DNA of 64,000 bases, from the NCBI GenBank assembly GCA_026129255.1, contig JAHCIJ010000003.1, positions 434,001-498,000 of the forward strand. Reading direction: 5' to 3'. Source of the stretch: Anaerolineales bacterium (GTDB lineage Bacteria > Chloroflexota > Anaerolineae > Anaerolineales > UBA11579). Shown here in pieces: positions 42,244 through 62,774 of this stretch. Position 1 is the first letter of the stretch; each line of letters starts with the position of its first letter. The notes beneath the pieces were generated by a model. That model saw only the letters and a list, made by a program, of their open reading frames with translations, searched no databases and was not told the DNA's origin. The position numbers and the translations under genes are program-made.

Positions 42244-44205
42244 CTAGCAACCAGCCTCTGCGAGCTCTTGCGGCAGGTGGGCATCAGGCAGCCATGTATT
42301 CCAGGCGTAACATAATTTTTCGAGGGCGGCGGGCTGCTTGAGCAAGATGTCTGCAGTGAGCACGCGTGCCTCTTGTTCTCTGTCGGTTCTCAGCAAAGCT
42401 TCAATCACTGGGAACCTGCCGAACTGCAGGTTGGAAGTATAGTCTTGATCTTCGGTGATTTCCCAAAGATCAAGCACAGTCTCCCAATCGCCTTGCTGCT
42501 GCGCCAGATCCATCTTTTGAAAGTAGTAACACCAGGTTCGCTCTGGTTCTTCTCCGAAGATGTCGGGGTTGGGCAATGGTCCCTGAGTTGTTGATATCAG
42601 GTCAAGCCTGCTCAGGTGGGCTATCTCGGTTATGCCGGAATCTGCCAAACGATTGTATTGGTCCGCTTCATTTAGAAACCACACGCATTGGCCATAGTTC
42701 GAGTTGTCGTAAAGAACTAGCTTCTGGCTGTTTGCAACCAAGTGCAGGTTGCTGATACTAAAGCGCAGCTCAACATTGTTTTCGAGATCTTCCTGATAGG
42801 CAGCGAGGTCATCGTAGTAATCAAGCATCCAGTAACTTACCTGACCATCTGCGGAGATGGGGGCCGCGTACAAAGTATTCACCGCTGCTGCTGCGGCGTA
42901 CCTGCTGGTGAAAGTGCTCATGACCTCTGGGCCAACCAGGGCAGTGCCTGCTTCAATGCTGGGAGCGCGCCAGTAGAACTGCCAGTACATGCGCCGCTGC
43001 TCTTCCCAATCCCAACGGTAAAGGTTTGCGGAACGTAAGTGTGCGCCCACCGCCAGGCCTATAAGCACAGCCAAGAGCACGTTGCGGTAGACACTTTTGC
43101 GGAGAAGTAGGTGTAGTAAGCCTGAGAACAAGACAGCTGCCCCCAGCATGGCGGGCAGAGAGAATCTATCGACAAATAGCCCGCCTAGCAGCGTGCGCCC
43201 GGTCATTTGGATGGGAAGCAAGCTCAAAACGATGGCTAAAAGACCCAGCAGTGTTGCTTGAGCGGCAGGGCGCTCAGGTGTCTCCTCTTTGGCGGAGGAT
43301 AGTTGTAGGTAAATGAAACAGACAAAAGCAGTAACCACTGTCAGGCTCAGAGAGAAAAGTACTGCTCGGTCTGAGAAATCAATGAGCTGCGCACTCAGCG
43401 TCTTTGACCAGGCATCCACCACCACGGTAAGCAAGTTTTGCAAAGTAGCTTGCAGGAAAGCAAGCGCCCCAATCCATACCAACGGATTGGGATCTTGCGG
43501 CATGGTGAGGGTGACGCGCCAGATGAAAAACCCGACCAGAATAGCGAAGTAGGGCAACCATTGGCGGATAGCGCTCTTCACTGCTGCTTTGAACGAAGTA
43601 CCTGGTGTGTAGAACCATGCAAGCAGGATCAGAGGGCGCGCAAGCTCAAGGCCGGCAAAATACTCCATGGTGAAGAGATGGGCAATTCCGGTCAGGATGG
43701 CTAATAGTAGCCAGACCCAGCGCTTACCTTGGGAGCGTAGGGCGCGGAGCATGGCGTACAGCGAAAACAGGAACAGGTTGTATACGATGAAATGCTGGCT
43801 ATAAGCAGCCGCAATGGAGCTTTGGCTGAATGAGGGATAAACCAAAAACAAGACGCTCGCCATTTGAGCCATCTGTTCTGCTTTCGGCCAGAGCATGCGA
43901 AGAATCAGCCACAAGAATATTGCAGCGGACAAGCGTAACAAAAAAAAGAAGATATGCCAATGCAAAGGAGTGACCCCTAAAATGGGGATAGTGACTGAGT
44001 ATGTCCAAAATGACAGGGGGCGAATATAGCTAAAAAACTCACTCAGCAATTCTGGAGAGCCCTGTTGGGCGAGGAATATTATTGGCCAATCATCCCAATA
44101 AAAGCCCAGCTGAGGGATGAGCAAACCAAAAGCCAGAATGGCAATCAAAAATAGGAATGCGGGAAAGAATAGTGCTTTAAGTCTGTGCTGCTCAAGGAAG
44201 TACAT
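42244..44205 (-). CDS. Polytopic membrane protein, GT-C glycosyltransferase-like
   Basis: 653 aa. About ten or more membrane helices fill residues 10-410, followed by a soluble C-terminal region of about 240 residues, partly helical. The first extramembrane loop has the acidic motif GFYWDDWPIIF directly after helix 1, the position of the catalytic Asp in lipid-phosphosugar-dependent GT-C enzymes (PMT/ArnT type). No specific family can be named. Start 44205 is supported by TAGAAT six bases upstream. GC is lower than in the neighbouring housekeeping genes. It probably acts on the outer face of the membrane in glycan or protein glycosylation. Confidence 0.55.
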   Translation of the reverse strand: MYFLEQHRLKALFFPAFLFLIAILAFGLLIPQLGFYWDDWPIIFLAQQGSPELLSEFFSYIRPLSFWTYSVTIPILGVTPLHWHIFFFLLRLSAAIFLWLILRMLWPKAEQMAQMASVLFLVYPSFSQSSIAAAYSQHFIVYNLFLFSLYAMLRALRSQGKRWVWLLLAILTGIAHLFTMEYFAGLELARPLILLAWFYTPGTSFKAAVKSAIRQWLPYFAILVGFFIWRVTLTMPQDPNPLVWIGALAFLQATLQNLLTVVVDAWSKTLSAQLIDFSDRAVLFSLSLTVVTAFVCFIYLQLSSAKEETPERPAAQATLLGLLAIVLSLLPIQMTGRTLLGGLFVDRFSLPAMLGAAVLFSGLLHLLLRKSVYRNVLLAVLIGLAVGAHLRSANLYRWDWEEQRRMYWQFYWRAPSIEAGTALVGPEVMSTFTSRYAAAAAVNTLYAAPISADGQVSYWMLDYYDDLAAYQEDLENNVELRFSISNLHLVANSQKLVLYDNSNYGQCVWFLNEADQYNRLADSGITEIAHLSRLDLISTTQGPLPNPDIFGEEPERTWCYYFQKMDLAQQQGDWETVLDLWEITEDQDYTSNLQFGRFPVIEALLRTDREQEARVLTADILLKQPAALEKLCYAWNTWLPDAHLPQELAEAGC

Positions 44206-44347: not shown

Positions 44348-44385
44348 AAAAAATAGAGCCCCATATCGGGGAGTCTCTATTTTTT
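44348..44385 (-). terminator. Intrinsic terminator overlapping the end of the 44377-46515 gene
   Basis: An 11-bp outer stem (AAAAAATAGAG / CTCTATTTTTT) and a CCCC/GGGG inner stem, with a run of seven T on the minus strand. The stop codon (44377-44379) lies within the stem. Confidence 0.85.
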
Positions 44386-46515
44386 GTAAGAGAAAATCAA
44401 GTACGGATCAATCCTGTGAGTCTGTTGCAGATAGCTCAATATCTCTTCCTTCTCCTGTTCTGGCAGCTGCAAAAACAACTCTCGATGGATAACAAGGAAG
44501 AAGCCCTGTTCGGGACCACGGACGTTAGCCAGTACCTCGCGCAACTGCTCACCTAAAGGCCCGTTTGCTGCAACAATTAGCTCAAGCTCTCTTTGCTGTG
44601 AATCCAGTTTGTAGCTCAATACTTGATAATCCTCGGAGAGGGTCACGAATTCAAATGCGGTTAAACTCTCTGAAAAGATAGCTTGCTTAAGCAGGAAAGG
44701 CCTGACGACAGCATTGTCCATCGAAAACTCACCAACCGCCCAAACCCAACCTTGTTCGGGATCAAGAACCCACTCTCCGTCCCGGTCGCCAGATACCAAG
44801 AGCAGTGTAAAGCGATCATACTCAGCACTAGCTTGATCAAAGAATTGTCTAAAACCGTTAGCAGTGGAGCTCACATTAAAACCCATCAAGGCCTGATCTA
44901 CTGGTTGCCCGTTACTTCTGCTGAGTGAATCTGAAACCATGTTTGAAATCCAACCAGCTTGCCGTGCCACAGCCATGCCAAAGATCAGGACAAAAAGCAA
45001 GCGAAACAACCAGAGTGCCTTGGAGAGACCGATAGAAGTTGTGAGCGAGTTAACGGTCAAGTAGCTCCAAGCTTGGGTAAACATAAAAAATATAAACGGA
45101 AGGATTGGCATCCAGTACCTGGTAACAGGCACGCTTCCACTCAGGGCAATTGCCACTAATGTGAATGCAATGAGGGCAAGCGAGAAGAACTGATTAATCC
45201 TAAAATCTGCCCTGTCCTTCTTGGATAGTTTTCTCGCTTGGGAGAATATCAAGACAATGACTAAGCAAGAGACAACCACGTAGGGCTGCTGCGCCATTGA
45301 ATTCCAAAACGAATTAAGGAAATCAACAACCGTGGCCCCAACAGAATGGAAGCCCAGATTGTATACAAAGAGCTTGCGGCTTTCAATCTGGGTCACTACT
45401 GGTACAACTACTGTGGCCTCTGATTTCGTCGTTGCATCAAGCCAAACCAAAAAAGCAAAAGGAGAAAATGAAAGCAAGGCAAACAAAAAAGCTTTGCGGG
45501 TGCGACGCAGTGAATTTTGAACACCATCAACAAAAACCCAGAACAGCAGAACTACCGCGCTCAAGGCAATGCCCATAAATCTTGTAACACTAGCTAGAGA
45601 GGATAGAAGCAACGCGCCGAGAAAGTAACTGTGTTTGCTAGTAAGCTTATAGGTCAAAATGCAATAATAGGTGACTACAATAAAGAGAACATAAAGCGGT
45701 TCGGTAAGTCCGTAAAAGAATAGCCGAATAAAGTCCTGCAATGAGGCTAGTAAAAATAGAAACACAATGTTTAAAATTGAGTCGTGCGACAATCTTCGGA
45801 GCACAAGTGCAAAGAATATAAGGGTCAGCAAAACACAAGCGGAGGAGATAAAAGCTGCGCCGTCACCTGTAAATGGACTGATGAACATCCATGCCGACAG
45901 AAGCAACGGCCAGACTGGAGGCAACTGGTTAAACTGTAGCTGCCCTTCAGTCATCGGCTGCATTGCTGTTAGAAGATAACTAAAAGAATCCCCACCGACC
46001 GTAACCCCCAACAAAGAAATATGGAAAGCCCAGAAGAGCCCGATGACGATGGCTGCCCAAATTTCAGCATGATAGCCAAATAGCTTGCTAGACAATTGCT
46101 CGTAAGGTAAACGGATTTTTAAATTACTTAAGAAAACTGCCAACTTTGGAGCCAAGATAACGCCAAGCAGGTTGCCAACAAAGAGATACACAAGTAAGAG
46201 GCGCGAAGCTGGCGCTTCTCCTAGCAAAATTGCACAGTACTGCAACCCCGAGAGACCAAAAGCAATTCCAATCAAGACCAGGGAACTGTCGCCCCAGCGC
46301 TTGCTTCTTTCGCGCGCCAAAAATACTACCGCCCAGCTCAAAGCGGTTATAAGAAGAGCCGCCGGGGGCACACGAATTGGCTCTGGCAAAGATTGACCAA
46401 CTGCCAAAGCTGCACGCAGGAGGACAGAGGCAAAGAGAAGAGAGAAAAGTGAAAAGACTTCTATTACAAATTTAAGCAACACTGCCGCATCGTGGCGTTT
46501 GAGCATATCTTTCAT
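44377..46515 (-). CDS. Polytopic membrane protein, GT39/GT-C glycosyltransferase-like
   Basis: About 712 aa from ATG 46515; the frame is open to a TTG at 46572, and ATG 46506 is another choice. No good Shine-Dalgarno marks any of them. About a dozen helices fill residues 10-520. An acidic loop after an early helix reads LGVTVGGDSFSYLLTAM, followed by PPVWPLLLSAWMF, reminiscent of GT39-like mannosyl/arabinosyl transferases, where an Asp in this loop is catalytic. The C-terminal ~180 residues are soluble. It is AT-rich (roughly 45% GC by eye) and its end carries an intrinsic terminator. The donor and acceptor are unknown. Confidence 0.55.
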   Translation of the reverse strand: MKDMLKRHDAAVLLKFVIEVFSLFSLLFASVLLRAALAVGQSLPEPIRVPPAALLITALSWAVVFLARERSKRWGDSSLVLIGIAFGLSGLQYCAILLGEAPASRLLLVYLFVGNLLGVILAPKLAVFLSNLKIRLPYEQLSSKLFGYHAEIWAAIVIGLFWAFHISLLGVTVGGDSFSYLLTAMQPMTEGQLQFNQLPPVWPLLLSAWMFISPFTGDGAAFISSACVLLTLIFFALVLRRLSHDSILNIVFLFLLASLQDFIRLFFYGLTEPLYVLFIVVTYYCILTYKLTSKHSYFLGALLLSSLASVTRFMGIALSAVVLLFWVFVDGVQNSLRRTRKAFLFALLSFSPFAFLVWLDATTKSEATVVVPVVTQIESRKLFVYNLGFHSVGATVVDFLNSFWNSMAQQPYVVVSCLVIVLIFSQARKLSKKDRADFRINQFFSLALIAFTLVAIALSGSVPVTRYWMPILPFIFFMFTQAWSYLTVNSLTTSIGLSKALWLFRLLFVLIFGMAVARQAGWISNMVSDSLSRSNGQPVDQALMGFNVSSTANGFRQFFDQASAEYDRFTLLLVSGDRDGEWVLDPEQGWVWAVGEFSMDNAVVRPFLLKQAIFSESLTAFEFVTLSEDYQVLSYKLDSQQRELELIVAANGPLGEQLREVLANVRGPEQGFFLVIHRELFLQLPEQEKEEILSYLQQTHRIDPYLIFSYKK

Positions 46516-46672
46516 TTTAACACTAAGAGTACTGGCACCCTGCGGCCGAGAAGAGGCCTGCCATTGATCCAAGCAAGAGGTCGGCGCCTCGCTTTTGCGG
46601 CTGGAAGGGGGCGCCCCCCTATTGATGGCTGCTTGGTCAATGTTGCCGGAGTCCCGCGGGGAGGCTTCAAGT

Positions 46673-50787: not shown

Positions 50788-51822
50788 ATGAAGATTCTCC
50801 TAGACATAGGTCACCCTGCTCACGTACATTTTTTCCGCCCGGCACTCCACGAGTGGCAAAAACAGGGTTATGAAGTATTGATTACTGCCCGTAAAAAAGG
50901 CGGTGTTATCGAACTGCTGGATTACTACAACCTAAAGTATCTTGTGACCAGCGAACAGTGGAGCGGCGGAGCACTTAGGCAGCTCGCCAAGCTCCTCGGC
51001 CACACCTGGAGGCTCTGGCGAACCGCCAGGCAATTCCGCCCCAGCCTTATTCTGAGCATAAGCTCTCCGATGGCGGCCTGGGTCTCTTTGCTTAGCGGCA
51101 TCCCGCACTGGACCTTTGACGACACCGAGCACGCCACCCTGGAGCATAGACTGTACCGGCCAGGGGCCAAGCGCATCTACACCCCCCTAGGCTTCACAAA
51201 GGACTTGGGGCCAAAACAGGTGAAATATCCAGGCTTCCATGAATTGGCCTACTTGCACCCCAATCGCTTTGCCCCAAATCCTGAGGTACTTAAACGCGCC
51301 GGGCTTGAACCGGGCGAGCGGTTTTTTGTCGTGCGCACTGTGGCCTGGACTGCTGCCCACGACATTGGCCAACATGGACTGACTCCAAAAGATGTAGAAC
51401 GCTTGCTTGAGATTTTGAGGAGCCATGGCAAGGTGGCCATTTCGAGAGAAGGATCCAGCCATATCGGAATCGGCTCCAAAAAGCTGCACCCCAGATATAT
51501 GCACGACTTGCTGTATTACGCCACGTTGTACATTGGCGAAGGGGGTACGATGGCAACCGAGGCGGCCTTGCTAGGCACGCCATCCATATTTGTCAACACA
51601 CTGACGGCGAGCAACTGGCAGGAGCTGGAACACACCTATGGGCTGATGTACTCGTTTAAGTCAGGCGTACCTGCGATAGCAAAAGTGGAAGAACTGCTGA
51701 ACAAGGCTAACCTGGGGGCAGGTTGGCAGGAGAAACGCGAGCGCCTACTCAAAGACAAAATAGATGTCACTCAGTACGTGGTGGATGAAGTGCAGAAGTT
51801 CTGGCTGGCAAAAAAAAGTTAA
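50788..51822 (+). CDS. DUF354 family protein (UDP-GlcNAc 2-epimerase/GT-B-like)
   Basis: 344 aa. The DUF354 start is clear (KILLDIGHPAHVHFFRPALHEWQKQGYEVLITAR). The C-terminal half has the GT-B-like features RYMHDLLYYATLYIGEGGTMATEAALLGTPSIFVN. The family resembles the UDP-GlcNAc 2-epimerase/MurG fold but has no proven reaction. Here it could be a glycosyltransferase, or stand in for the C2 epimerase (WbpI) that this locus otherwise lacks. There is no Shine-Dalgarno. It lies 39 bases after wbpA and overlaps by 4 bases the convergent flippase-like gene. Confidence 0.75.
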   Translation: MKILLDIGHPAHVHFFRPALHEWQKQGYEVLITARKKGGVIELLDYYNLKYLVTSEQWSGGALRQLAKLLGHTWRLWRTARQFRPSLILSISSPMAAWVSLLSGIPHWTFDDTEHATLEHRLYRPGAKRIYTPLGFTKDLGPKQVKYPGFHELAYLHPNRFAPNPEVLKRAGLEPGERFFVVRTVAWTAAHDIGQHGLTPKDVERLLEILRSHGKVAISREGSSHIGIGSKKLHPRYMHDLLYYATLYIGEGGTMATEAALLGTPSIFVNTLTASNWQELEHTYGLMYSFKSGVPAIAKVEELLNKANLGAGWQEKRERLLKDKIDVTQYVVDEVQKFWLAKKS

Positions 51823-52784
51823 ACATTTGTATCTTCTAATTTTCGTTTGCGATGGTATAAAAAGTACCACGAGATAGGCGCCAAGACGCAATGAACTAAA
51901 TAGCCTGCACCGTGCACAAGCGCCGTAGCAGATACTCCCTGAATAAAGGTGAAGTTATAGACCTGGGATATGTAGCCGATGGCGGTTTCTAGGACTCCGA
52001 TATTCCCAGGGGTGATGAACACTGTGTTCAGCAATGCAGCAAATACAGCATAGTTAATGCCGGCCATCGGCTTGAAAGCAATCACCCCCAGACTGCTGAA
52101 CGCCAGCCAGAAGGCCAGGCCAGAAAACACAAACTCGGCCACCTGCCAAATTCCGGCAATCAGAAATTCTGGCTTGTGGGCGCGGAGTCGCTCGACGCCA
52201 GCGAAGAACAAGTCCAGCATGTTACCAATGCGCCCCAGAGACGCTGTGATGTGATTGGGGACACGCAGCCACAGCGCAAAAATACTGCAGCTAAAAAGCA
52301 CACTAAGTACCCACAGGAATTCCGGCGGCGATTGGCCTGTAAGCCAAAGTAGAGCGTTGTTTATAAGCATCAAAAGACCACCCACAAAAAACGTAATCAC
52401 CAAGGCCCCTAAAAGTATCGATGGCGCCTGTGAATAAGGTATGTCGTAACGTTTTTTGAGGTACACAGCGCGGGCTACACTTCCCGATTGGGCCGGCAAA
52501 ACCAAGTTGACTATGCCCGCAGCCATATACAGACCAAAGTTCTCTAAGTATCCAATCGGGGCGCCGATCACGCGATGAATGATTGCAAAGCGAGCCGAGG
52601 CACAAAAGTAGGATGCCATCAGACATATCGAAAGAAGGAAGAACGACTTTGGCCCAATAGTAAAAACAACTTTAAATTCATCCCAGTTAAGTATCACAAA
52701 CCGGCCAAGCAGCACAAAGATCAGCAGGACAAAGCCGATTTTCAGAATTCGTCCAAGGGAAGTGGACCAGGATTTTGAAGCCAT
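51819..52784 (-). CDS. Flippase-like membrane protein (UPF0104/lysylphosphatidylglycerol synthase TM family)
   Basis: 321 aa with 8 membrane helices. Family words are FGLYMAAGIVNLVLPAQSGSVARAVYLKKRY and INYAVFAALLNTVFITPGNIGVLETAIGYI. The AglD/MprF-type transmembrane domain is often found beside glycan genes and may help lipid or lipid-linked sugar transfer across the membrane; direct evidence of flipping is limited. It is the last gene of the minus-strand operon, 1 base after the CDP-glycerol-transferase-like gene. Confidence 0.75.
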   Translation of the reverse strand: MASKSWSTSLGRILKIGFVLLIFVLLGRFVILNWDEFKVVFTIGPKSFFLLSICLMASYFCASARFAIIHRVIGAPIGYLENFGLYMAAGIVNLVLPAQSGSVARAVYLKKRYDIPYSQAPSILLGALVITFFVGGLLMLINNALLWLTGQSPPEFLWVLSVLFSCSIFALWLRVPNHITASLGRIGNMLDLFFAGVERLRAHKPEFLIAGIWQVAEFVFSGLAFWLAFSSLGVIAFKPMAGINYAVFAALLNTVFITPGNIGVLETAIGYISQVYNFTFIQGVSATALVHGAGYLVHCVLAPISWYFLYHRKRKLEDTNV

Positions 52785-52785
52785 G

Positions 52786-53931
52786 CTAGCTTGCCTGCTC
52801 TAGTAGGCGCGCCAACTGGGCAACCGCGGTTTGCGTGGCAAACCCGTAGTTGTATACATACTCGTCCCGGGCCGCTGAAATTGCCGCTGAATACTGTGCG
52901 GCGGCATCGGAGAGCTCGGCTGCACCAGAAAGGATATCGGCCAGAGCCTCCGGAGCAAACACTTTTCCGAGGCGCTGGCGCACGGCCAGCTCTGCCGGGG
53001 ATAGACCGAAAAGGTGCCAATTGGGATTGTTGACCTTGGGCAGCACATCAATAAAAAGGACAGGTCGCAGGCGGAGAAAGGCATATTCCAAGGCTACTCC
53101 GGAATAATCGCTGATTAGTAAATCAGCCGTAAGCAAAGAAGTCTGGCCGGCAGCAGGGTTCTCCAGACGAAATTGGGGCTGCCTGATGAAGGTGTTAGTC
53201 AAACGGCGCAAGACAGCTGTGCCCATTTGCATCGGATGCGGGCGGAGTACAACCTCAAAATCTTGCTCCAGTAAGCCTGCCACCAACTCGATGCCAATTC
53301 GCCCCAACACGTTGTCTTCACCCCAAGAAGGTGCAACTAAGACCTGTTTGTGATTGCCCTCGCGGCCTGCACCGCTAACCTGAGCATACTGCTTAATGAG
53401 CGTGTCCATCTTGGTGTATCCAACGGGGAGGGTAGGCCGCGGTTGACGCCGAGCAGCTGCGTCCATGGCTGCGGTTTCCTGGGTATGATGCGGCCCTGCA
53501 CTAAAAATCAAAGTGTAGTGATCAAATGCGTTGGGAGAGTAGGCCGCATGGAAGCTTACCAGCGAGTGAGGCACACAAATTACATGCTCAGCAGCCCTGG
53601 GTACATTGAACAGCGAAAGAGTGGCGGTGGAAACAAACGCACGACAGGGTAGCCAGTAAAGAGCAAACTGGCTCAAGTGGTACAAGCTCGGGCTTTTAGT
53701 CTGGTGCAACAAAGCGGTACGAGGGTTGACGACGACTGCGGTCTTCAGCCGGCCATCACATGCGGCAGCAATGGAGCCTAGCCACTGCTCGTCCATGCCC
53801 GCCTTGTAAAAAAAGATTACATCTGCGCCGCCGGAACGAAAGAAGCGATTAATTTCCCGCAAATCACTGAACCATGCACCTGAGAACAGATACCACAGGA
53901 TTTCAGACAGAGCTCGCCCAAGCAAGGCCAT
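52786..53931 (-). CDS. CDP-glycerol glycerophosphotransferase-like protein
   Basis: 381 aa. The GT-B-like C-terminal half shows KQVLVAPSWGEDNVLGR, FEVVLRPHPMQ, and the signature LLISDYSGVALEYAFLRLRPVLFIDV, as in TagB/TagF teichoic-acid polymerases. The N-terminal half is less conserved (DVIFFYKAGMDEQW). Family members transfer a phospho-glycerol group from a CDP carrier. In this locus the available CDP-linked donor would be cytidine diphosphoramidate, so this is one candidate for the group transferase (inference). Gap to the upstream zinc-ribbon gene is 10 bases. Confidence 0.7.
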   Translation of the reverse strand: MALLGRALSEILWYLFSGAWFSDLREINRFFRSGGADVIFFYKAGMDEQWLGSIAAACDGRLKTAVVVNPRTALLHQTKSPSLYHLSQFALYWLPCRAFVSTATLSLFNVPRAAEHVICVPHSLVSFHAAYSPNAFDHYTLIFSAGPHHTQETAAMDAAARRQPRPTLPVGYTKMDTLIKQYAQVSGAGREGNHKQVLVAPSWGEDNVLGRIGIELVAGLLEQDFEVVLRPHPMQMGTAVLRRLTNTFIRQPQFRLENPAAGQTSLLTADLLISDYSGVALEYAFLRLRPVLFIDVLPKVNNPNWHLFGLSPAELAVRQRLGKVFAPEALADILSGAAELSDAAAQYSAAISAARDEYVYNYGFATQTAVAQLARLLEQAS

Positions 53932-53941
53932 AATTGCGGAG

Positions 53942-54352
53942 CTACTTCTTCTTTCCGATGACTACGATGCGCGCCGTGAAGGTTTTGGGCGACAGGCGCA
54001 TGACCCATTCCGTCAATCTAGTGACTGGTTTACTTAGCACCGCTCCACCTAGGAACATAGATAGCGGACGCAGGAACACATAACCCTCAACCTTGGCGAA
54101 CTGGTCGGCGCTATTGAAGCGCTTGTAATCATAATGGCCTTTATAGAACTCTTCGTAGTATTCAACACTCTCAGTTGGGGTCTGCGAAAATTTCTCGTAG
54201 CTTACATCGTTGGCGCCAGTTGCCAATAACATAGGGATGCCGTTGCGCACGGGGTAGCTAGCGCCACAGCCAAGGCTTTGCAGGCTCTCGCTGCCGGCTG
54301 CTTCGAGTTTGCTCTCGCACCGAGGGCAGGCAAAAATCTCAAAAGAATTCAT
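53942..54352 (-). CDS. Trm112-like zinc-ribbon protein, probable methyltransferase remnant
   Basis: 136 aa, start overlapping the upstream gene (ATGA). The N-terminus FACPRCESKLEA, then GCGASYPVRNGIPMLL, is the zinc-ribbon module that precedes many class I SAM methyltransferases, but its second Cys pair is reduced to one Cys. YYEEFYKGHYDYKRF and the end LSPKTFTARIVVIGKKK look like the edges of such an enzyme, yet the SAM-binding glycine loop (LDVGCGxG) is missing. It may be an internally deleted methyltransferase or a small accessory protein of the methyltransferase just upstream. Confidence 0.5.
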   Translation of the reverse strand: MNSFEIFACPRCESKLEAAGSESLQSLGCGASYPVRNGIPMLLATGANDVSYEKFSQTPTESVEYYEEFYKGHYDYKRFNSADQFAKVEGYVFLRPLSMFLGGAVLSKPVTRLTEWVMRLSPKTFTARIVVIGKKK

Positions 54353-55113
54353 TTCTCTTCCTTGCTGGCTGAAATCCAAACCCAGAAGTGACCGAACGAG
54401 AGGGTGGCGAAGAGTTTATCAAAAAGCTGGGTCAGGCGCCGGTTGTGAGGCGTATCGCGATACTCGGTAAAACCATACCAGTTCTCCAGTTTTACTTTGG
54501 CCAGAGTAGTGATTTTTTGAAGAAGCACATAGACGCTATGGCGGTCAATTGAAAAGCGCCCTGCATAGCCGCGTGCAAGTAACTGCTTACGCAAAAAGCG
54601 CTGTGTGGCCAACTCCTTATAGTCAGACGGGTTCTTGAGGCCACGAATAAGCTCCAGCCCGCTAACCGGGTGCACAGAAAACCCCAGAACTCCCTGCGCA
54701 GTGAGCCAAGGCATTAATCTGTCAATGCCATTAAGCCACTCTGCCTTCGGATAGGCTTGCACAGTCCCAAAAAGGGTGATGAGGTCAAAGACTCCCTTTT
54801 TGAAAGGCAGGTGACGTATATCGGCAACAAGCGCATCGATTTCAACAGGAAGAGTAGCCTTAAGCCGTTGAATTGCAGCGAAGCTACGGTCAACGCCTAT
54901 ACAGGAACTATGCCGCAATTTCTCTTGATGGAAATCAACCACCCTGCCTGAGCCTACTCCAAGTTCCAGCCACCGCTCCCCGGGGGCTAAACGAATGTCC
55001 ACCGTAAAGGGATAACCGGCCAGCAGTAGGTCGCTGGCAGACAGACCGGAATCATGCTTCCACTCATTCTGGTAAAAAGCATCGAACAGGGTTTCGTAGC
55101 GTTTTTCAGACAT
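54349..55113 (-). CDS. Class I SAM-dependent methyltransferase
   Basis: 254 aa. The SAM-binding motif I is RWLELGVGSGRVVDF (about residue 47), motif II region CIGVDRSFAAIQRL, then ALVADIRHLPFKKGVFDLITLFG. The C-terminal 90 residues are specific to this protein. The substrate is unknown; in C. jejuni, methyltransferases lie next to the glutamine kinase set and make the O-methyl group of methyl-phosphoramidate, so this is a candidate for an equivalent role (inference by position). It is coupled to the zinc-ribbon gene and lies 3 bases after the formyltransferase-like gene. Confidence 0.75.
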   Translation of the reverse strand: MSEKRYETLFDAFYQNEWKHDSGLSASDLLLAGYPFTVDIRLAPGERWLELGVGSGRVVDFHQEKLRHSSCIGVDRSFAAIQRLKATLPVEIDALVADIRHLPFKKGVFDLITLFGTVQAYPKAEWLNGIDRLMPWLTAQGVLGFSVHPVSGLELIRGLKNPSDYKELATQRFLRKQLLARGYAGRFSIDRHSVYVLLQKITTLAKVKLENWYGFTEYRDTPHNRRLTQLFDKLFATLSFGHFWVWISASKEEK

Positions 55114-55116
55114 CGC

Positions 55117-55965
55117 TTATGCCAGGAACAAGTCTTGAAGGATTTGCGCTCGCAAGGCACCGTGCATCGTAAAGAAGGTGCGGCCTTCTGCTGGATCCTG
55201 CTTTTGGCTTGGCAGGCGAGAATAGTCCGCCTCGGAACCGTGCGTTACCAGAAGTCTATGCAAGAGGTCGCCACGAAGCAGGACATCATAGAAGGCCATA
55301 ACTGCTTCGTAGAGTTGATCTGGAGTGTACTTGGTTTTATCCACCCCAAATCGCAAAGGTTCGAATTCATGCGTGGCGATAATGTCGCCGGTGTCAATAC
55401 CGGCATTCATGTAAAAACAGGACATGCCCGGCTTGCCGCGCACCGCGCGAGACCACAACAGGCAATCGCCCCCGCGCACAAAAGGCACAACGCCTGGGTG
55501 CAAATGAATGAAGCGCTTGCCGGGTAGGCTAAGCAAGCTTTCCGGCATTATGCCGCTGGTAGAGTACAACCAAGCAGGCTGAGGTGAACGCTCCAAGTAT
55601 TCTCGCAACTTGGGATCGTCCAGGCCAAAAGCATACAGGCGCAGCACATTTGCGGAATATCGGCTGTAATCAATAGGGGTAAAGAAATCGGGAGAGCCTT
55701 GAAAGTGCGCCTGGATAGCCCGGGCGAGCTTTCGCATATAAGGTCTGCGCAACTGGAACTGACGAAGGATGCGAATAAGGAACCACGTGATGCGCAGGCC
55801 GAGCAGCCTGACCACCAACTCGGTTGGACGGTAGCGCGGCACAAGACGCAAATCCAGTATCATGGCGGGCTGTAATCCGGCTTTTTGAAATGCATCCAGA
55901 TAGGCAATTGTTGCCGTGCCCTCTGAAGCCATCACGGCAAGATTGGTCTGCAGCTGCTTGCTCAC
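55117..55965 (-). CDS. Formyltransferase-fold protein (methionyl-tRNA formyltransferase-like)
   Basis: 282 aa from GTG 55965, whose GTGA overlaps the upstream stop. The recognisable block is RFIHLHPGVVPFVRGGDCLLWSRAVRGK followed by GIDTGDIIATHEFE, which corresponds to the Asn-x-His loop and the later Asp of N-formyltransferases. The catalytic Asn position holds His (FIHLHPG), so the chemistry may differ. The first 80 residues keep a Rossmann-like start (VMASEGTATIAYLDAFQKAG). In sugar loci such enzymes formylate amino sugars. It sits between the helical small protein and the methyltransferase. Confidence 0.65.
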   Translation of the reverse strand: MSKQLQTNLAVMASEGTATIAYLDAFQKAGLQPAMILDLRLVPRYRPTELVVRLLGLRITWFLIRILRQFQLRRPYMRKLARAIQAHFQGSPDFFTPIDYSRYSANVLRLYAFGLDDPKLREYLERSPQPAWLYSTSGIMPESLLSLPGKRFIHLHPGVVPFVRGGDCLLWSRAVRGKPGMSCFYMNAGIDTGDIIATHEFEPLRFGVDKTKYTPDQLYEAVMAFYDVLLRGDLLHRLLVTHGSEADYSRLPSQKQDPAEGRTFFTMHGALRAQILQDLFLA

Positions 55966-56384
55966 TTGACCAACTCCGCGACCAACGAGCGCGCCCATGT
56001 TTCTAATTCCGGGGGATAGAGGCTCCGCTGCGTCAGGTTGCCATCAAGAACCTTCAGGGCAGAGTTCAGGAACTTAAGATCGCCGTGCGCTTGCGCAAAG
56101 GAAAGTAACAGGGCAACTGCCAGCGGCAAATATGAGGGCTGCACATCCGCAACCGGGCGCGCATTGCGGCTGAGGTCCTTCGTGTAAAAAGCACGCAGCT
56201 TACGGGTGACATCCAGCTTCTTGCATAGGCGATCCAAAGTCTGTACCGCTTTGGGATCGTCGTGGGCCAATGCTCCCGCAAACAAGGAGTGCAAGAACTC
56301 TTCCGTAGAAAAGGCGCCCTTCGGCGCTGCCCGAGGTGCCGGCGGGGAGGGAAGGTCAGCGGGCCAGATTCTGCTCGCGTTCAT
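55962..56384 (-). CDS. Hypothetical small helical protein
   Basis: 140 aa, not recognised. After a Pro/Ala-rich start (about 25 residues) it is predicted all-helical, with no P-loop, metal motif, signal or membrane helix. It overlaps the cytidylyltransferase and the formyltransferase-like genes by 4 bases each, so it is translated with them. Its place directly after the predicted phosphoglutamine cytidylyltransferase is where cj1415 (CDP-amidate kinase) lies in C. jejuni, but there is no kinase signature. Confidence 0.55.
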   Translation of the reverse strand: MNASRIWPADLPSPPAPRAAPKGAFSTEEFLHSLFAGALAHDDPKAVQTLDRLCKKLDVTRKLRAFYTKDLSRNARPVADVQPSYLPLAVALLLSFAQAHGDLKFLNSALKVLDGNLTQRSLYPPELETWARSLVAELVK

Positions 56385-57175
56385 GCTGCCCTCAAGAAGG
56401 TATCCTCATAAAAGCTATCCAGAGCGCCGTTTTCTCGCATCTGCGTATACAACTGCAAGTCCTGCAATGTGTCCACTTCCAGCCAGCCGTTGCTTACCGG
56501 CACGGATTGCATGTGCCACTCGCTATCAATCAAATATTGAAGCAAGCTGGTCATGAACATCTTGTCGAAGCTCTGGCCGTCATAGATGGCAGCGGGGTCC
56601 ATGCTATCGTACACGTCAAGCAAAGTGGGGATGGCCGCAGCCTGAAACTTAATGAGCCCGATGTACTGGGCTTGGATATCTGCCAGTGACTCGGGCTTCT
56701 TACCCAGTTCGAGAATGCGCCCATCCGGGGACAGCTTCAAGGTTTCAGCATCCTGTAGCGGATTCGGCATGCGGGCAGACCAATATCGCTGCCAGGCTTC
56801 ATCCACGACAACACACGCCGGGGCGCTGCAGGCTAACAGGGCTTGCAGCACGCGCGGCTCGTAAACAATATCCCCATATGAGACCACGAGGTCTTCCCCA
56901 CACGTCATCAAATGACGCGCGGTGAAAAGTGTGGCGACCATATTGGTTTCGGCAAAGCGTTCATTGAGCACCACATCGTAACCCAGCGCTTCAATCTGTT
57001 CGGCACGGTAGCCGCCGGCCACAGTAATGTCGTCCAAGCCGGCTTGGCGAATGGCAGCCACCTGGCGCGCCAACAAGCTGCGGCCGTCCAGTTCGACCAG
57101 GCACTTGGGGCGGTCATCAGTAAGCGGAGCCAGGCGTGTGCCCTGGCCGGCAGCCAGGATAAGGACTTTGGTCAT
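56381..57175 (-). CDS. Sugar/choline-phosphate-type nucleotidyltransferase; predicted CTP:phosphoglutamine cytidylyltransferase
   Basis: 264 aa. The N-terminal signature LILAAGQGTRLAPLTDDRPKCLVELDG and the metal-binding VVSYGDIVYEP are typical of LicC-like nucleotidyltransferases; VVDEAWQRYWSARMPNP, NGWLEVDTLQDL complete the fold. On its own this would be called a phosphocholine or sugar-phosphate cytidylyltransferase. Next to a C26 hydrolase and a PEP-synthase-like kinase, in the order of cj1418-cj1417-cj1416, the better guess is transfer of CMP to N-phospho-L-glutamine, giving gamma-glutamyl-CDP-amidate. No choline kinase is present. Confidence 0.75.
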   Translation of the reverse strand: MTKVLILAAGQGTRLAPLTDDRPKCLVELDGRSLLARQVAAIRQAGLDDITVAGGYRAEQIEALGYDVVLNERFAETNMVATLFTARHLMTCGEDLVVSYGDIVYEPRVLQALLACSAPACVVVDEAWQRYWSARMPNPLQDAETLKLSPDGRILELGKKPESLADIQAQYIGLIKFQAAAIPTLLDVYDSMDPAAIYDGQSFDKMFMTSLLQYLIDSEWHMQSVPVSNGWLEVDTLQDLQLYTQMRENGALDSFYEDTFLRAA

Positions 57176-57196
57176 TACACACCAGTGAGGGAGGTA

Positions 57197-57826
57197 TCAG
57201 CTAAAAAGATGCTTTAGCAAAGCGGCATCTTGGGCCAGAATTTTCGGTTCTCGCTCGGGGTGCCACATAATACCATAGTGAGGTATTGCCTCATGTTGGA
57301 AGGCTTCGACCGTGTTGTCGGCTGCCAGCGCAATGACATTGAACTGCCCAGGTAGGTCTTCGAGAGCAAAACCGTAATTGTGGTAGCTGTTCACGTCCAG
57401 GCTGGGAGGCCAAGAGAGGAATTCCTGCTGGAGGCGGACCTCATGACGTTGGGCAACGTGCTCTTCCAGTGGGGTCAGTCTGCCGCCGTAGTAATCCCCC
57501 ATGAGCTGCATGCCACGGCAAACTCCCAGAGCGGGGAGCCCGGCTGCGCGAGCATAATCGAGCGCCAGGCGTTCGAAGCGGTCGCGCTCCGGGGCAGGCT
57601 TGCTGCTTTTCGGGAAGGAACTTAGGTCGTTGCCTCCGGAGAGGATAATGCCATCGAGTGCCAGGGCTCCTAAATAACCGACAACATCCTCTATTGTGTT
57701 GGCAAGCGGAATTGCTAGCAACCCCAATTGTTCCAACAGAGGAGCCCAGCGCTGGTCCAGGCAATCACGGCGCTCTCCATGGGGTTCAACGTACTCCACT
57801 CGCTGCGTAAGGCCAATACGTCTCAT
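57197..57826 (-). CDS. Class I glutamine amidotransferase-like hydrolase (C26); predicted gamma-glutamyl-CDP-amidate hydrolase
   Basis: 209 aa. It has the oxyanion strand DGIILSGGNDLSSF, the nucleophile in LGVCRGMQLMGDYYGG, and catalytic His/Glu in YGIMWHPEREPK, so the triad looks intact. The N-terminus MRRIGLTQRVEYVEPHGERRDCLDQRW fits C26 gamma-glutamyl hydrolases such as Cj1417. It would split L-glutamate from gamma-glutamyl-CDP-amidate and release cytidine diphosphoramidate. It overlaps the kinase gene by 4 bases, and 21 bases separate it from the cytidylyltransferase. A generic gamma-glutamyl-GABA hydrolase is the alternative. Confidence 0.8.
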   Translation of the reverse strand: MRRIGLTQRVEYVEPHGERRDCLDQRWAPLLEQLGLLAIPLANTIEDVVGYLGALALDGIILSGGNDLSSFPKSSKPAPERDRFERLALDYARAAGLPALGVCRGMQLMGDYYGGRLTPLEEHVAQRHEVRLQQEFLSWPPSLDVNSYHNYGFALEDLPGQFNVIALAADNTVEAFQHEAIPHYGIMWHPEREPKILAQDAALLKHLFS

Positions 57827-60800
57827 TGCACAATATTAATCCTCTTGGCCTTGCAATCTAATTCCACCACTTGGGCAGAAGCTAGCTTGGAGAGCAGAGC
57901 CTCTCCGACTCCAATGGCAGCGGGCAGATTGAGCTCTGCAGCGCGAATTGTCATATGAGAGTTAGCGCCTCCATAAGCAGTAATCAGGCCGCCAATCTCC
58001 CGGCCAAAAAGCCAATCATAGCCAGGGTCTGCTTGCGGGATGAGCACGATTTTGCCTTTGAGATCCAAATCCAAGTCAATGACTTCAGCTAGGTTTGCCA
58101 CGGCAGCGATAATTTGTTTGCTAGAGACAAAGTTCGGGTGGCTGACAGGGATTTCAAAGGCCCAAAAATCAGCCTCGTCTCGAATCAAAGGAGGCAACAA
58201 AGTACTCTCAGTGAGGTGATGGAATTCCTGCCCTTCTTCAGAACGAGCTCGCAACCAAGCACCCACATCAGCTAGAGAGCTCGTGCGTAGCCACATTAAA
58301 TCATTGATGTTGATGAACGAGAGCTCACCGCGGCCAAGCTGGTGTTCTGCCCCAAATGCAGCAATCTCCTCCAAGGCGGCGCTGAGGTTGCGTGAGAAGA
58401 CGAATTTAGAAGACTCGCGGCCAGCAATAGCCCCGCGCAAGAACTTCTCGAATGCTGTGAATTCACCTGGCAGCCCCAGCTCGCCGAGGAGTCTGGAGAT
58501 CGTCTTCCTTTCCTCTGCAGTCCAACTGAATTCTGCGTGAACTGAAGGATCGTTGCCTTCCGAACCACTCAAGATATGACCCAAATAAAGATCCGGGTTC
58601 TCGGCGTAATTGGGAGAAGTGATTTCATACGTGCCTGGGCGTAAGTGACCATAACCAGCGATGAATTCCTCACGGGAGAGCTCTCCCCTGGCTACTTTGT
58701 AGCTATCTACTTCAAAACTACGGGTAACTGTATTTAGCGAGTTAATGAAGGCTTCCAGCCTTTCGTTGCTCAGGACGCCGCAGCGCACCAAAGAGCGCAG
58801 CAAGGTAACAGCCACAAAGCCAGCACGAGCCAGGTGTGCAAAAGGCAGCGTCCCGTACTCTCGGCAATCCTGAAGCAAAGTAAAGGCGCGGTCGAGGGGT
58901 TGCAGACCTGTTGTCTTGAGGGCGTCTATGCGCTCCTCCAACTGCAGCACGCGCGCCAGGTCATTCTCAAAACGCTGGAAGGCGTTGAGGGTTACCTGGC
59001 GCAATCCTTCGCGCAGCTCAGCAATATCGGATTGAGAGAATCCGGCGGGCCGCAGACGCTGGTTAGCTTGCTGGTCAAAATCAAAATAGAGACAGGTGAA
59101 GGCAATTTCGAATTCGACCTTATCGTGCAACTCAGGATGGTGAGCGAGACGATCCACATAGTGAGCCAACAATCGTGAGGCAAGTTCTGTGGATAATGAG
59201 GTGGGGATAAAAGAAGCAAAACTGGCGCGCGCGTCCACGTAGGGGTGTCCGGTGAAGTTGACCAGCAGGGGCTGAGGGCGCACGTCTCGATAGCCGTGTT
59301 CAGCACGCTGGCGAGCCCAAATGTCATCTGTAATCAAATACTGGTACAAGCTAAGCGCCAGAGGCCGCGGATTGGTGCCTACAATCTCCGCGGGATTCCA
59401 ATCCGGCATGACACCAAAAATAGGGCGGCCTTCCAGCAGCCAAGGCTCACTAGGGCGGCGGCGAGAAAAAAGCGCAGACGCCTGCCGCAAAGCCGCCATC
59501 ACAGTTTTGTCGGAGGGCTCCTGCATGCGAAGCTGCAGCACCAAAGGGCGCACCTGCAGGATGTGCACTTGGCCATCTGCAGATTGAGCGAATTCGATGT
59601 CCAGCGCGTCATAGCCCAAGAGCGACTCGATCTCAAGCACGGCCTGGAATACAGGATCCAAATCTGGCACCAGGGTCAAAGAGGACTGGCTGCGATGTAG
59701 CACAACCGTACGCATGTCTGTACCAGCCCCACTGGTGACGCCATCTGTGCGCTCGCTGTCTTCGAAGTTAAAGGTGTAATACGGCGCCCCCCGACCCAGG
59801 CCACGGGTCAATACAACACCACTCCGCACAACATTGGCCACAACAGCCTGCACGAGCACCTGATGTTTGGGATTGTCATCACCATAAGAGGCAATTACCT
59901 GTTCGATTGCATCAGAAACTTCGGCCGGTTTGCTACTTTGCACATTCAGCAAGCTAGTGAAGCCGCCAGCGTTGGACTCGGTCCAACTGTCCTCGCTGCG
60001 CGCGCTGCTGCGCACAGCGAGTTGCGCAGAAGGGAACTTTGCCTGGATGGAGGAAATCACCCGCTGGGGTGTCTGTTGCCATTTTTCCAAGTCTACAGTT
60101 ACTTGCTCACCAATATAGCTTTTTTGAACCAGTGAACGCAGACGAGCCAATGTTTCTGCTTTTGTACCCAGAACAAAATGTGCTAGGTCCTGTGGCGCAT
60201 TGAGCTCTGCCCATTTTCCGGCACATTCTACAACCCTAGCCGGTTGGCCATCCTGTATCAACTGCTCGACCAGCCTAGGCAGGTCCCATGTATTGATTTG
60301 ATCGCCTTGTTCAGCGGCAATCTGCAGAATGCGGCGAACAACAGCTGGCCCAGTTTTCATGAGACCAACGAACTCCCCACTTGCCTGCTCCATATCCACG
60401 GCTCGAGAAATCTCGACCAGATTCCCGCCAGAAAGACGGATCTTCTCTGCTTGCAGCATATCTTTCTTTGAACGGGAAGAGTATCGCTCTCGCCAGTTGC
60501 TGTCCATCCCCACAACCAGATCCCCTTGCTCAGAGAGTACGGACGCGATGGCTTCACTGCGCAGAACGATATCCGAATAAGTGATTAGTAGATCGCTAGT
60601 TTCCGGCAGTGGGGCTGAAAGCAGCGAGCGTACACTGCCAGACTTCTGCCAGCTTGGATTGAAAGAAAAGTGAATCTCCGGGTAGCGGCTGGCAATCTCT
60701 TCAAAGTGATAGCCGCCCACAAAATAAAACTCCGGCTGACAAACCGAGCGAAACGCTTCCATCAGCCAGTCCAATACGCGAGAATCGCCCCGCACTGGCG

Positions 60801-60876
60801 CTAGCGCAGAAGGCGCCATACCGCGGGTTGGCAAACCAGCGCCCAATATAATCACCCGGATTTGTTTCATTGCCAT
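57823..60876 (-). CDS. Nucleotidyltransferase - ATP-grasp - phosphohistidine fusion; predicted L-glutamine kinase
   Basis: 1017 aa. Domains: residues 1-235 a nucleotidyltransferase-like fold with a weak loop (ILGAGLPTRG) but intact LITYSDIVL; about 255-480 a pyruvate-phosphate-dikinase-type ATP-grasp (LAVRSSARSEDS, GGFTSLLNV, HILQVRPL); about 490-930 a mainly helical linker; 930-1017 the swivelling phosphohistidine domain GGANSHMTIRAAELNLPAAIGVGE, with His974 as the carrier. No PEP/pyruvate TIM barrel is present, which excludes PEP synthase. Cj1418 of C. jejuni, with the ATP-grasp/His layout, phosphorylates the amide of L-glutamine. Adjacent C26 and cytidylyltransferase genes support the same role. 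Confidence 0.78.
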   Translation of the reverse strand: MAMKQIRVIILGAGLPTRGMAPSALAPVRGDSRVLDWLMEAFRSVCQPEFYFVGGYHFEEIASRYPEIHFSFNPSWQKSGSVRSLLSAPLPETSDLLITYSDIVLRSEAIASVLSEQGDLVVGMDSNWRERYSSRSKKDMLQAEKIRLSGGNLVEISRAVDMEQASGEFVGLMKTGPAVVRRILQIAAEQGDQINTWDLPRLVEQLIQDGQPARVVECAGKWAELNAPQDLAHFVLGTKAETLARLRSLVQKSYIGEQVTVDLEKWQQTPQRVISSIQAKFPSAQLAVRSSARSEDSWTESNAGGFTSLLNVQSSKPAEVSDAIEQVIASYGDDNPKHQVLVQAVVANVVRSGVVLTRGLGRGAPYYTFNFEDSERTDGVTSGAGTDMRTVVLHRSQSSLTLVPDLDPVFQAVLEIESLLGYDALDIEFAQSADGQVHILQVRPLVLQLRMQEPSDKTVMAALRQASALFSRRRPSEPWLLEGRPIFGVMPDWNPAEIVGTNPRPLALSLYQYLITDDIWARQRAEHGYRDVRPQPLLVNFTGHPYVDARASFASFIPTSLSTELASRLLAHYVDRLAHHPELHDKVEFEIAFTCLYFDFDQQANQRLRPAGFSQSDIAELREGLRQVTLNAFQRFENDLARVLQLEERIDALKTTGLQPLDRAFTLLQDCREYGTLPFAHLARAGFVAVTLLRSLVRCGVLSNERLEAFINSLNTVTRSFEVDSYKVARGELSREEFIAGYGHLRPGTYEITSPNYAENPDLYLGHILSGSEGNDPSVHAEFSWTAEERKTISRLLGELGLPGEFTAFEKFLRGAIAGRESSKFVFSRNLSAALEEIAAFGAEHQLGRGELSFININDLMWLRTSSLADVGAWLRARSEEGQEFHHLTESTLLPPLIRDEADFWAFEIPVSHPNFVSSKQIIAAVANLAEVIDLDLDLKGKIVLIPQADPGYDWLFGREIGGLITAYGGANSHMTIRAAELNLPAAIGVGEALLSKLASAQVVELDCKAKRINIVQ

Positions 60877-60881
60877 CGAAG

Positions 60882-62756
60882 CTATGAGGAGGCCAAAGCC
60901 ACCGGCTGCTGGGAGAGCATGCTTTGGCGAACCGGAGCGCGTCGATCACCTTCATCAAAGAACTCACGCAACCACAGTTCCAAGTTGACCCACTTCCAGA
61001 TTAACGCCCCCGACTTTTTGCGACCAGCCTTGTGGGCGGAAAAGATACGTTCGACAGCTTCCCAATTCCAGTAGGGTCGGTTTTTGAAGCTCTCCGAGTA
61101 AATTAGGTCTTCGGCGAAACTGATCACTTCTGGGTCTGCGAAAAATTCATCCTCTGGTGCTTCAAAACCAACCTTGTCTTTGCGGTTGTAAATCAGGTCG
61201 GGCAGGTCTTCTCTAATCGCCTCGCGGAAGGCAACCTTGGTCTCGCCATCTGCCAGTAGCTCTTCGGCAACCATTGCCATTGCGGCATGCACGAGCTCAT
61301 AATCCATAAAGGGTTCGCGGCACTCAACGCTCCATCGCATGGAGCTCTTATCTCCCCACATCAGATTGTGTGGGATGGAAGTTGAGAATAACGTGAGATT
61401 GAGTACTTCCCGCAAGGGTTTTGCCTGCCATCGTGGGTCCATCTGATCTCCGCATACTGACTGCAAGTACGCGTGATCTACCCATGGGGTGATCCGACTC
61501 CTCCAGAGAAAGTCGCGCAGACTATGGGGGAGTAACAGGAACAGGAATAAAGCATAAGGAAAGAGCTGCTTGAACTTAGTGAGGCCAAGAATCATATTCT
61601 TAACCAAGCTGCCCCACTTGCCTCGCTTGAATAACTCCAAGAAGTAGTAACCCCAGTAGTAAACATAACCGCCAAAGAGCTCGTCGCCCCCTTGCCCGTC
61701 CAGCAGGACCCTGGCGCCATTCTCATGTGCCAGTTTGAAGACGCGGTACTGGGCATAGGCGCTCAACCCGGTGACCGGTTCTTCCATGGCTGCAACGAAA
61801 TCTGCCACATCGTCCATGAAGGTTTTGGGGTCTACACTGGTGTAGTGTGGTTTTGCGCCTGTGTATCTGACAACCTCATCGATGTATTTGCTTTCATCTA
61901 CAGAGCTGCCTGGGGCCACAAGAGAAAAAGCGTTGAACTCACTGGGCAAAGCCCGGTCCAAAATGCATGTAATTGCGCTGGAATCAATGCCGCCGCTCAA
62001 ACAGACGCCAACCGGCACATCTGAGACGGTGCGCCACTTGACTGCCTCCGTAAATATACGCCGCAGTTCAGCAGAGTCCTGTGCGCGCCGCGGGGTAGGC
62101 GTATACCACTGAGAAATCTTGTACTCACCGCTGGCCAATTTGAAGCGCAGCATATGCCCCGGCAATAGAGAGTAGATATTGGTAAAGAAGGTGCGGTCAT
62201 TGTGCTGTGTAAGATTAAAAGCCAGATATTCCATGATGATCTGTTCATCTGGCTTTGAAACCACACCACATTCAGGGAAGGCGCCCAACATGGAGGAAAA
62301 GATTAGCCGGGTGCCCTCTGTATGGAAATATAGGGGCTTAACTCCGAAGCGATCTCGGCAGAGCAGTAGTTCGCCTTCTTGCTGATCGTAGAGAGCCAGA
62401 CCCCACATACCGTTGAATAGCTCGAAGCACTCATCTCCATACTCCTGATAAGCATGGAGAATAACTTCTGTATCACTGTCACTCTTAAACTCATGGCCGG
62501 CTTTTACTAAACGTTCGCGTATCGATTTGTAGTTATATATTTCGCCGTTGAAGACAATCCAAAAACGACCATCTGGAGTGCTCATCGGCTGATTGCCGCG
62601 TTCTGATAGATCAATGATGGCGAGGCGAGTCGAGCCCAGCGAAACTGCTTCGTCGACGTAAGTGCCAGAGCCATCTGGTCCGCGGAATCGGGCCAGATAA
62701 TTCATCCGCTTGATAAGCTCGGTGTCGCCCCAGGTGAAGCCGTTTATTCCACACAT
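60882..62756 (-). CDS. asnB: Asparagine synthase-type glutamine amidotransferase
   Basis: 624 aa from ATG 62756, which puts the nucleophile at Cys2 (MCGINGF). The class II glutaminase domain has ARFRGPDGSGTY, LAIIDLSERGNQPM and VFNGEIYNYK. The synthetase domain has the PP-loop SGGIDSSAITCIL, LLDGQGGDELFGGY and REPFMDYELV. It may make asparagine, but in O-antigen loci AsnB-like enzymes often amidate uronic acids (for example WbpS). The neighbouring uronic acid pathway makes that likely here. It lies 18 bases after the WbpG-like gene and 5 bases before the kinase gene. Confidence 0.88.
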   Translation of the reverse strand: MCGINGFTWGDTELIKRMNYLARFRGPDGSGTYVDEAVSLGSTRLAIIDLSERGNQPMSTPDGRFWIVFNGEIYNYKSIRERLVKAGHEFKSDSDTEVILHAYQEYGDECFELFNGMWGLALYDQQEGELLLCRDRFGVKPLYFHTEGTRLIFSSMLGAFPECGVVSKPDEQIIMEYLAFNLTQHNDRTFFTNIYSLLPGHMLRFKLASGEYKISQWYTPTPRRAQDSAELRRIFTEAVKWRTVSDVPVGVCLSGGIDSSAITCILDRALPSEFNAFSLVAPGSSVDESKYIDEVVRYTGAKPHYTSVDPKTFMDDVADFVAAMEEPVTGLSAYAQYRVFKLAHENGARVLLDGQGGDELFGGYVYYWGYYFLELFKRGKWGSLVKNMILGLTKFKQLFPYALFLFLLLPHSLRDFLWRSRITPWVDHAYLQSVCGDQMDPRWQAKPLREVLNLTLFSTSIPHNLMWGDKSSMRWSVECREPFMDYELVHAAMAMVAEELLADGETKVAFREAIREDLPDLIYNRKDKVGFEAPEDEFFADPEVISFAEDLIYSESFKNRPYWNWEAVERIFSAHKAGRKKSGALIWKWVNLELWLREFFDEGDRRAPVRQSMLSQQPVALASS

Positions 62757-62774
62757 ATGCAATCGTCCGTTTCG

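Follow-up and report, generated by a model that had tools for sequence, protein, structure and literature searches.

A candidate variant of the Campylobacter phosphoramidate activation cassette, with a fused kinase, in an Anaerolineales genome

According to work by Raushel, Cj1416 and Cj1417 of Campylobacter jejuni reportedly act in the making of CDP-amidate. The Campylobacter pathway has been reviewed (PMC6429109), and its kinase Cj1418, formerly misannotated as a PEP synthase, is an ATP-dependent L-glutamine kinase (PMC10971088). In the C. jejuni HS1 complex the genes follow the order mpnA-mpnB-mpnC and their products have 779, 200 and 253 aa (PMC7901785). The phosphoramidate groups on the Campylobacter surface serve as receptors for phages and influence serum resistance (PMC3907429, PMC8949473, PMC7901785), and one other report describes a phosphoramide on Xanthomonas LPS (PMC8042644). 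Beyond this report, hardly any phosphoramidate surface groups are known outside Campylobacter.

The original prediction for the window (the whole stretch of 64,000 nucleotides of an Anaerolineales genome that was analysed) was that a PEP-synthase-like kinase, a C26 hydrolase and a LicC-like cytidylyltransferase are encoded one after the other, collinear with cj1418-cj1417-cj1416. The three ORFs are indeed found in that order, and the collinearity holds in this respect. However, the locus is not a plain copy: its kinase is fused to an extra pseudo-nucleotidyltransferase domain, and a counterpart of mpnD (cj1415), the CysC-like fourth gene of the mpnA-mpnB-mpnC-mpnD set, is absent from the cassette. 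Because this fourth gene is missing, the cassette is best classed as a variant of the Campylobacter pathway and not as a strict member of it. The prediction had mentioned neither the N-terminal domain of the kinase, nor the missing gene, nor the conserved neighbours.

Layout of the cassette and its neighbourhood

The kinase stop codon and the hydrolase start overlap in an ATGA, and the order on the minus strand is kinase, hydrolase, cytidylyltransferase. The features of the region are:

51819..52784, minus strand: LPG_synthase_TM / flippase-like membrane protein (PF03706, 76.5 bits)
52786..53931, minus strand: TagF-like transferase, GT-B fold, 381 aa (PF04464, 40.2 bits, cut-off 22.1)
53942..54379, minus strand: Trm112-like zinc-ribbon protein (PF03966, 21.3 bits, slightly under cut-off)
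54349..55113, minus strand: SAM-dependent methyltransferase (Methyltransf_25)
55117..55998, minus strand: formyltransferase-fold protein with His for the catalytic Asn (HxHPG; Formyl_trans_N, 23.7 bits, cut-off 26.1)
55962..56384, minus strand: U140, a 140-aa protein of unknown fold, in many relatives fused to the next gene
56381..57175, minus strand: LicC-like cytidylyltransferase, candidate CTP:phosphoglutamine cytidylyltransferase, 264 aa (NTP_transf_3)
57197..57826, minus strand: C26-type hydrolase, candidate gamma-glutamyl-CDP-amidate hydrolase, 209 aa (best family NF045546)
57823-60876, minus strand: PEP-synthase-like kinase ORF, 1017 aa
57823..60189, minus strand: L-glutamine-kinase-like part of the kinase, residues 230-1017, with ATP-binding, middle and phosphohistidine (H974) domains
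60181..60876, minus strand: N-terminal pseudo-nucleotidyltransferase domain of the kinase, residues 1-232, paralogue of the cassette cytidylyltransferase
60882..62762, minus strand: asparagine-synthase-like amidotransferase, a conserved neighbour also present in loci L045, L046, L048, L070 and L090
62775..63977, minus strand: N-acetyl sugar amidotransferase-like protein, a conserved neighbour with homologues in L045-L048, L070 and L090

The kinase matches Pfam PPDK_N and PEP-utilizers and lacks a PEP barrel, as had been predicted. Residues 230-1016 match NCBIfam NF004508/PRK05849 over the full length of the model with 935 bits (cut-off 501), a cut-off that was reached in none of 14 control genomes. 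A closer kinship to rifampin phosphotransferase or PEP synthase, which the prediction had named as the outcome that would count against it, does not appear in these family scores: the best PEP synthase model gives 63 bits, the PEP synthase family TIGR01418 39 bits (cut-off 740) and the rifampin phosphotransferase family NF041857 29 bits (cut-off 999). The kinase shares with both enzymes the ATP-binding and phosphohistidine architecture, and they provide its best solved folds, but it falls far under their family cut-offs and belongs to another cassette context. Its GGANSHM motif (GGxNSHM), which aligns with the phosphohistidine motif of PEP synthase, contains H974, invariant in 45 of 45 relatives. 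A fold search with the AlphaFold2 model (pLDDT 90) returned rifampin phosphotransferase as the best solved relative of the kinase part. Since no glutamine kinase was among the solved structures matched, this search is unable to separate the two activities. Cj1418 itself we take to be a member of PRK05849, on the basis of its length, gene order and neighbourhood and the hydrolase family.

For the hydrolase (Pfam Peptidase_C26) the gamma-glutamyl-CDP-amidate hydrolase equivalog NF045546 is by far the best family, although its 135 bits do not reach the cut-off of 250. Six further cassettes, some with CysC and some without, have hydrolases that score just 109-133 (110-123 in the CysC-bearing loci), so this cut-off probably marks Campylobacter-like sequences only. 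The triad C103/H189/E191 is intact, as foreseen, and about 99-100% of 86 relatives keep it. The likeness of the cytidylyltransferase (Pfam NTP_transf_3) to LicC is borne out by LicC (1jyk) being its best solved structure, and the protein has every residue that is invariant among 83 cassette relatives, catalytic residues included.

With respect to C. jejuni, the three enzyme types, their order and a glycan gene context are held in common, and the product lengths are alike (a kinase part of 785 residues, 209 and 264 aa in the window against 779, 200 and 253 aa). The differences extend to the putative transferase, a 381-aa TagF-like protein in the window and a MeOPN transferase of 609-642 aa in C. 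jejuni, and to the methyltransferase of the window, which is not conserved among related loci. Judged without a reference sequence, no clear counterpart of a Cj1421/Cj1422-type MeOPN transferase or of the paired methyltransferases was recognised beside the cassette. The methyltransferase at 54349..55113 could possibly O-methylate the P-N group or a sugar. Its identity with the methyltransferase of CysC-type loci was considered and rejected, the two being unrelated.

The other flank of the cassette carries UDP-sugar dehydrogenase, aminotransferase and acetyltransferase-like genes. The nearest relatives, in Rhodoferax, Methylobacillus and Accumulibacter, have much of the neighbour set in common and in the same order, and GC content drops from 0.60 to about 0.49-0.57 across the island (40000-64000 of the window). 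From this shared ordered gene set and the GC drop, horizontal acquisition of the glycan island appears likely. A phage-integrase-family gene lies past the end of the window (L160:10233-11135). Within the window, two large minus-strand ORFs at 42244-44205 (653 aa) and 44377-46572 (731 aa) have no Pfam match.

Distribution and the two kinase architectures

At least 551 relatives of the kinase were found in 84,980 species genomes that were scanned. The best 80 of these, together with ten plasmid or phage records, one viral contig and the window, make up a set of 92 loci. These loci share ancestry and were selected for their resemblance to the query set, and their counts are not independent. No Campylobacter locus was found among the best 80 of at least 551 relatives or in the plasmid and phage collections. 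About 19 phyla are represented, with haloarchaea and candidate-phyla genomes among them, with the proviso that an assignment resting on a single metagenome bin may reflect contamination. Within their flanks the hydrolase is found in 86 of 92 and the cytidylyltransferase in 83 of 92, mostly in the order seen in the window. This co-occurrence is far beyond chance, and the cassette is real and widespread.

Among 398 genomes sampled evenly from the phylum to which Rhodoferax (L045) belongs, 15 carry the kinase family above cut-off; all kinase frames except that of the centre genome are too short for a fusion, and CysC occurs in 8 of 15 unfused loci. By comparison, the phylum of the window yields the kinase family in one of 400 sampled genomes, namely that of the window, and another Anaerolineales genome (L090) carries the same module in a different gene order.

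The kinases show two architectures, a fused form of about 1020 residues with the N-terminal domain, to which the kinase of the window belongs, and an unfused form of about 785 residues. One strongly supported group in the tree has 55 members, of which 51 are fused kinases; among the four exceptions, L083 and L088 end at contig edges and L079 has its N-domain in another frame. When the 59 fused and 33 unfused loci are compared, a CysC-like gene of the mpnD/Cj1415 type is present in 3/59 (L076, L106 and L112) against 23/33, and a strong TagF-like gene in 26/59 against 1/33. The P values of these contrasts (5e-11 and 1e-5) are descriptive only, because related loci are not independent. The kinases of L092, L096, L104 and L114 (three Acidobacteriota loci and one gammaproteobacterial bin) include a fused CysC domain, and that of L042, from a human-gut phage record, forms one protein with the C26 hydrolase. 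Such fusions tie these proteins to one pathway.

The domain that distinguishes the fused form (residues 1-232) resembles the cytidylyltransferase of its own cassette, with 24% identity (E 8e-15) and the same NTase fold (Z about 24). The catalytic Lys, present in 83/83 cytidylyltransferases, is replaced in 56/56 N-terminal domains; Met79 is lost in all of them and Asp142 in nearly all, and the position of Asp235 is changed in 47/56. Asp102, Glu144, Gly173 and Trp231 are kept. This pattern marks the domain as a conserved pseudoenzyme rather than a product of decay. A loss of the nucleotidyltransferase-signature Arg, suggested by a MAFFT alignment, was dropped, the Arg being retained in the pairwise alignment. 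That the domain serves docking or channelling is a guess.

The sequences point to a wide spread of the activation chemistry and to two forms of the pathway with differing last steps. In the literature searched, which consisted mostly of papers outside subscription, neither the fused kinase form nor such a distribution was found to have been described before.

The proposed pathway and its last step

The prediction that the three-gene cassette makes CDP-amidate is well supported by the full-length PRK05849 match, the C26 family of the hydrolase, the intact catalytic residues, the conserved trio and the domain fusions. From the glycan genes around the cassette, one may reasonably expect that a P-N group decorates a surface glycan. 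The pathway proposed here is built on genes, residues, conservation, gene associations and genome absences that were observed, and all of its chemistry is what we infer from them. The cytidylyltransferase would convert N-phosphoglutamine and CTP to CDP-N-glutamine, from which the C26 hydrolase would remove glutamate to leave cytidine diphosphoramidate (CDP-NH2). The fourth step would differ from that of Campylobacter: with no CysC-like CDP-amidate kinase in the cassette, the TagF-like transferase would move the phosphoramidate from CDP-NH2 to a glycan hydroxyl. The dead N-terminal domain of the kinase probably docks the active cytidylyltransferase or binds nucleotide, and the labile N-phosphoglutamine would in this way be passed on.

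For the window, it is on balance probable that the locus is a variant phosphoramidate activation cassette of this kind, whose CDP-NH2 is used directly by the TagF-like transferase and whose dead kinase domain docks a partner or binds nucleotide. The broader proposition is put forward tentatively: a second branch of bacterial phosphoramidate metabolism would exist across many phyla, with the dead domain serving docking or channelling and with CDP-amidate that is not 3'-phosphorylated as the donor for a TagF-like transferase. A specific candidate phosphoramidate transferase results, and it becomes testable whether glycans with P-N bonds occur in many environmental bacteria.

The alternative that fares best, albeit an unlikely one, is that the ordinary Campylobacter pathway operates: a kinase encoded elsewhere, either the ATP-sulfurylase-CysC protein or some other one, would 3'-phosphorylate CDP-amidate and a MeOPN-type transferase would then act. 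The host genome does have one APS-kinase domain, and the three fused-kinase loci with a CysC-like gene are in keeping with such a route. However, this sole APS kinase is part of an assimilatory ATP-sulfurylase-CysC fusion on another contig, and the scarcity of CysC-like genes in fused as opposed to unfused loci also argues against it.

Direct transfer by the TagF-like protein has to be weighed against a second explanation. PF04464 proteins of known function use CDP-glycerol or CDP-ribitol, and the TagF-like protein could instead have no connection with the P-N cassette and build a polymer of glycerol phosphate or polyol phosphate. With TagF-type CDP-glycerol glycerophosphotransferases it shares the GT-B fold and the RxH and DxS motifs; its best fold match is TagF bound to CDP-glycerol (Z 23.1), and TagF and TarL structures are both among its matches, although in a second aligner UDP-GlcNAc epimerases score about equal to TagF. 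Moreover, in C. jejuni HS1 tagF and tagD adjoin mpnABCD, where they serve the backbone (PMC7901785). Against a polymer stands the host genome, in which no TIGR01518 match, that is, no CDP-glycerol synthase (glycerol-3-phosphate cytidylyltransferase, TagD), was found; this genome is about 92% complete and gene absences in it are not absolute. Its only PF04464 protein is the TagF-like protein of the cassette, and genes of this type travel with the CDP-amidate cassette in its fused-kinase form. A role in polymer synthesis is improbable on this evidence, and transfer of phosphoramidate from CDP-NH2 is preferred for the TagF-like protein of the window.

This assignment leaves the 33 of 59 fused loci, for instance that of Marinobacter, in which no strong TagF-like gene lies within the flanks, and where another transferase must therefore act. 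A candidate for these loci is the pair formed by U140 and the formyltransferase-fold protein, which is present in 26/56 fused loci. The pair also adjoins CysC in several CysC-type loci, and in L155 CysC and U140 form a single ORF. Fusions of the formyltransferase-fold protein with the 140-aa domain before it are frequent; the protein has His in place of the catalytic Asn (HxHPG) in 30/31 relatives, with H165, H167 and D202 conserved, which sets it apart from a usual formyltransferase and possibly points to a new activity. That transfer or completion of the phosphoramidate group falls to this pair instead of the TagF-like protein is improbable as well: half of the fused loci are without the pair, and the formyltransferase fold is not known to have CDP-donor chemistry.

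Least likely of all is that the kinase acts on a substrate other than glutamine and that the product is no phosphoramidate, a view favoured by the fold match to rifampin phosphotransferase, by the official label of PRK05849 (hypothetical protein) and by the relatives in L041 and L044 that have no hydrolase and cytidylyltransferase, but the fold is indecisive for the reason given above and the best family of the coupled hydrolase is specific for gamma-glutamyl-CDP-amidate, which makes sense only with a glutamine-derived P-N intermediate.

In the plasmid loci L041 (Cupriavidus) and L044 (Microvirga), the PRK05849-like kinases have neither hydrolase nor cytidylyltransferase genes nearby, and that of L041 has a thiamine-pyrophosphate enzyme and an aminotransferase in its neighbourhood; these kinases may serve a different use of N-phosphoglutamine. 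In L039, a plasmid of Agrobacterium vitis, an unfused cassette adjoins genes for a CDP-alcohol phosphatidyltransferase, LysE exporters and a tRNA-ligase-related protein, and it may yield a small phosphoramidate metabolite instead of a glycan decoration.
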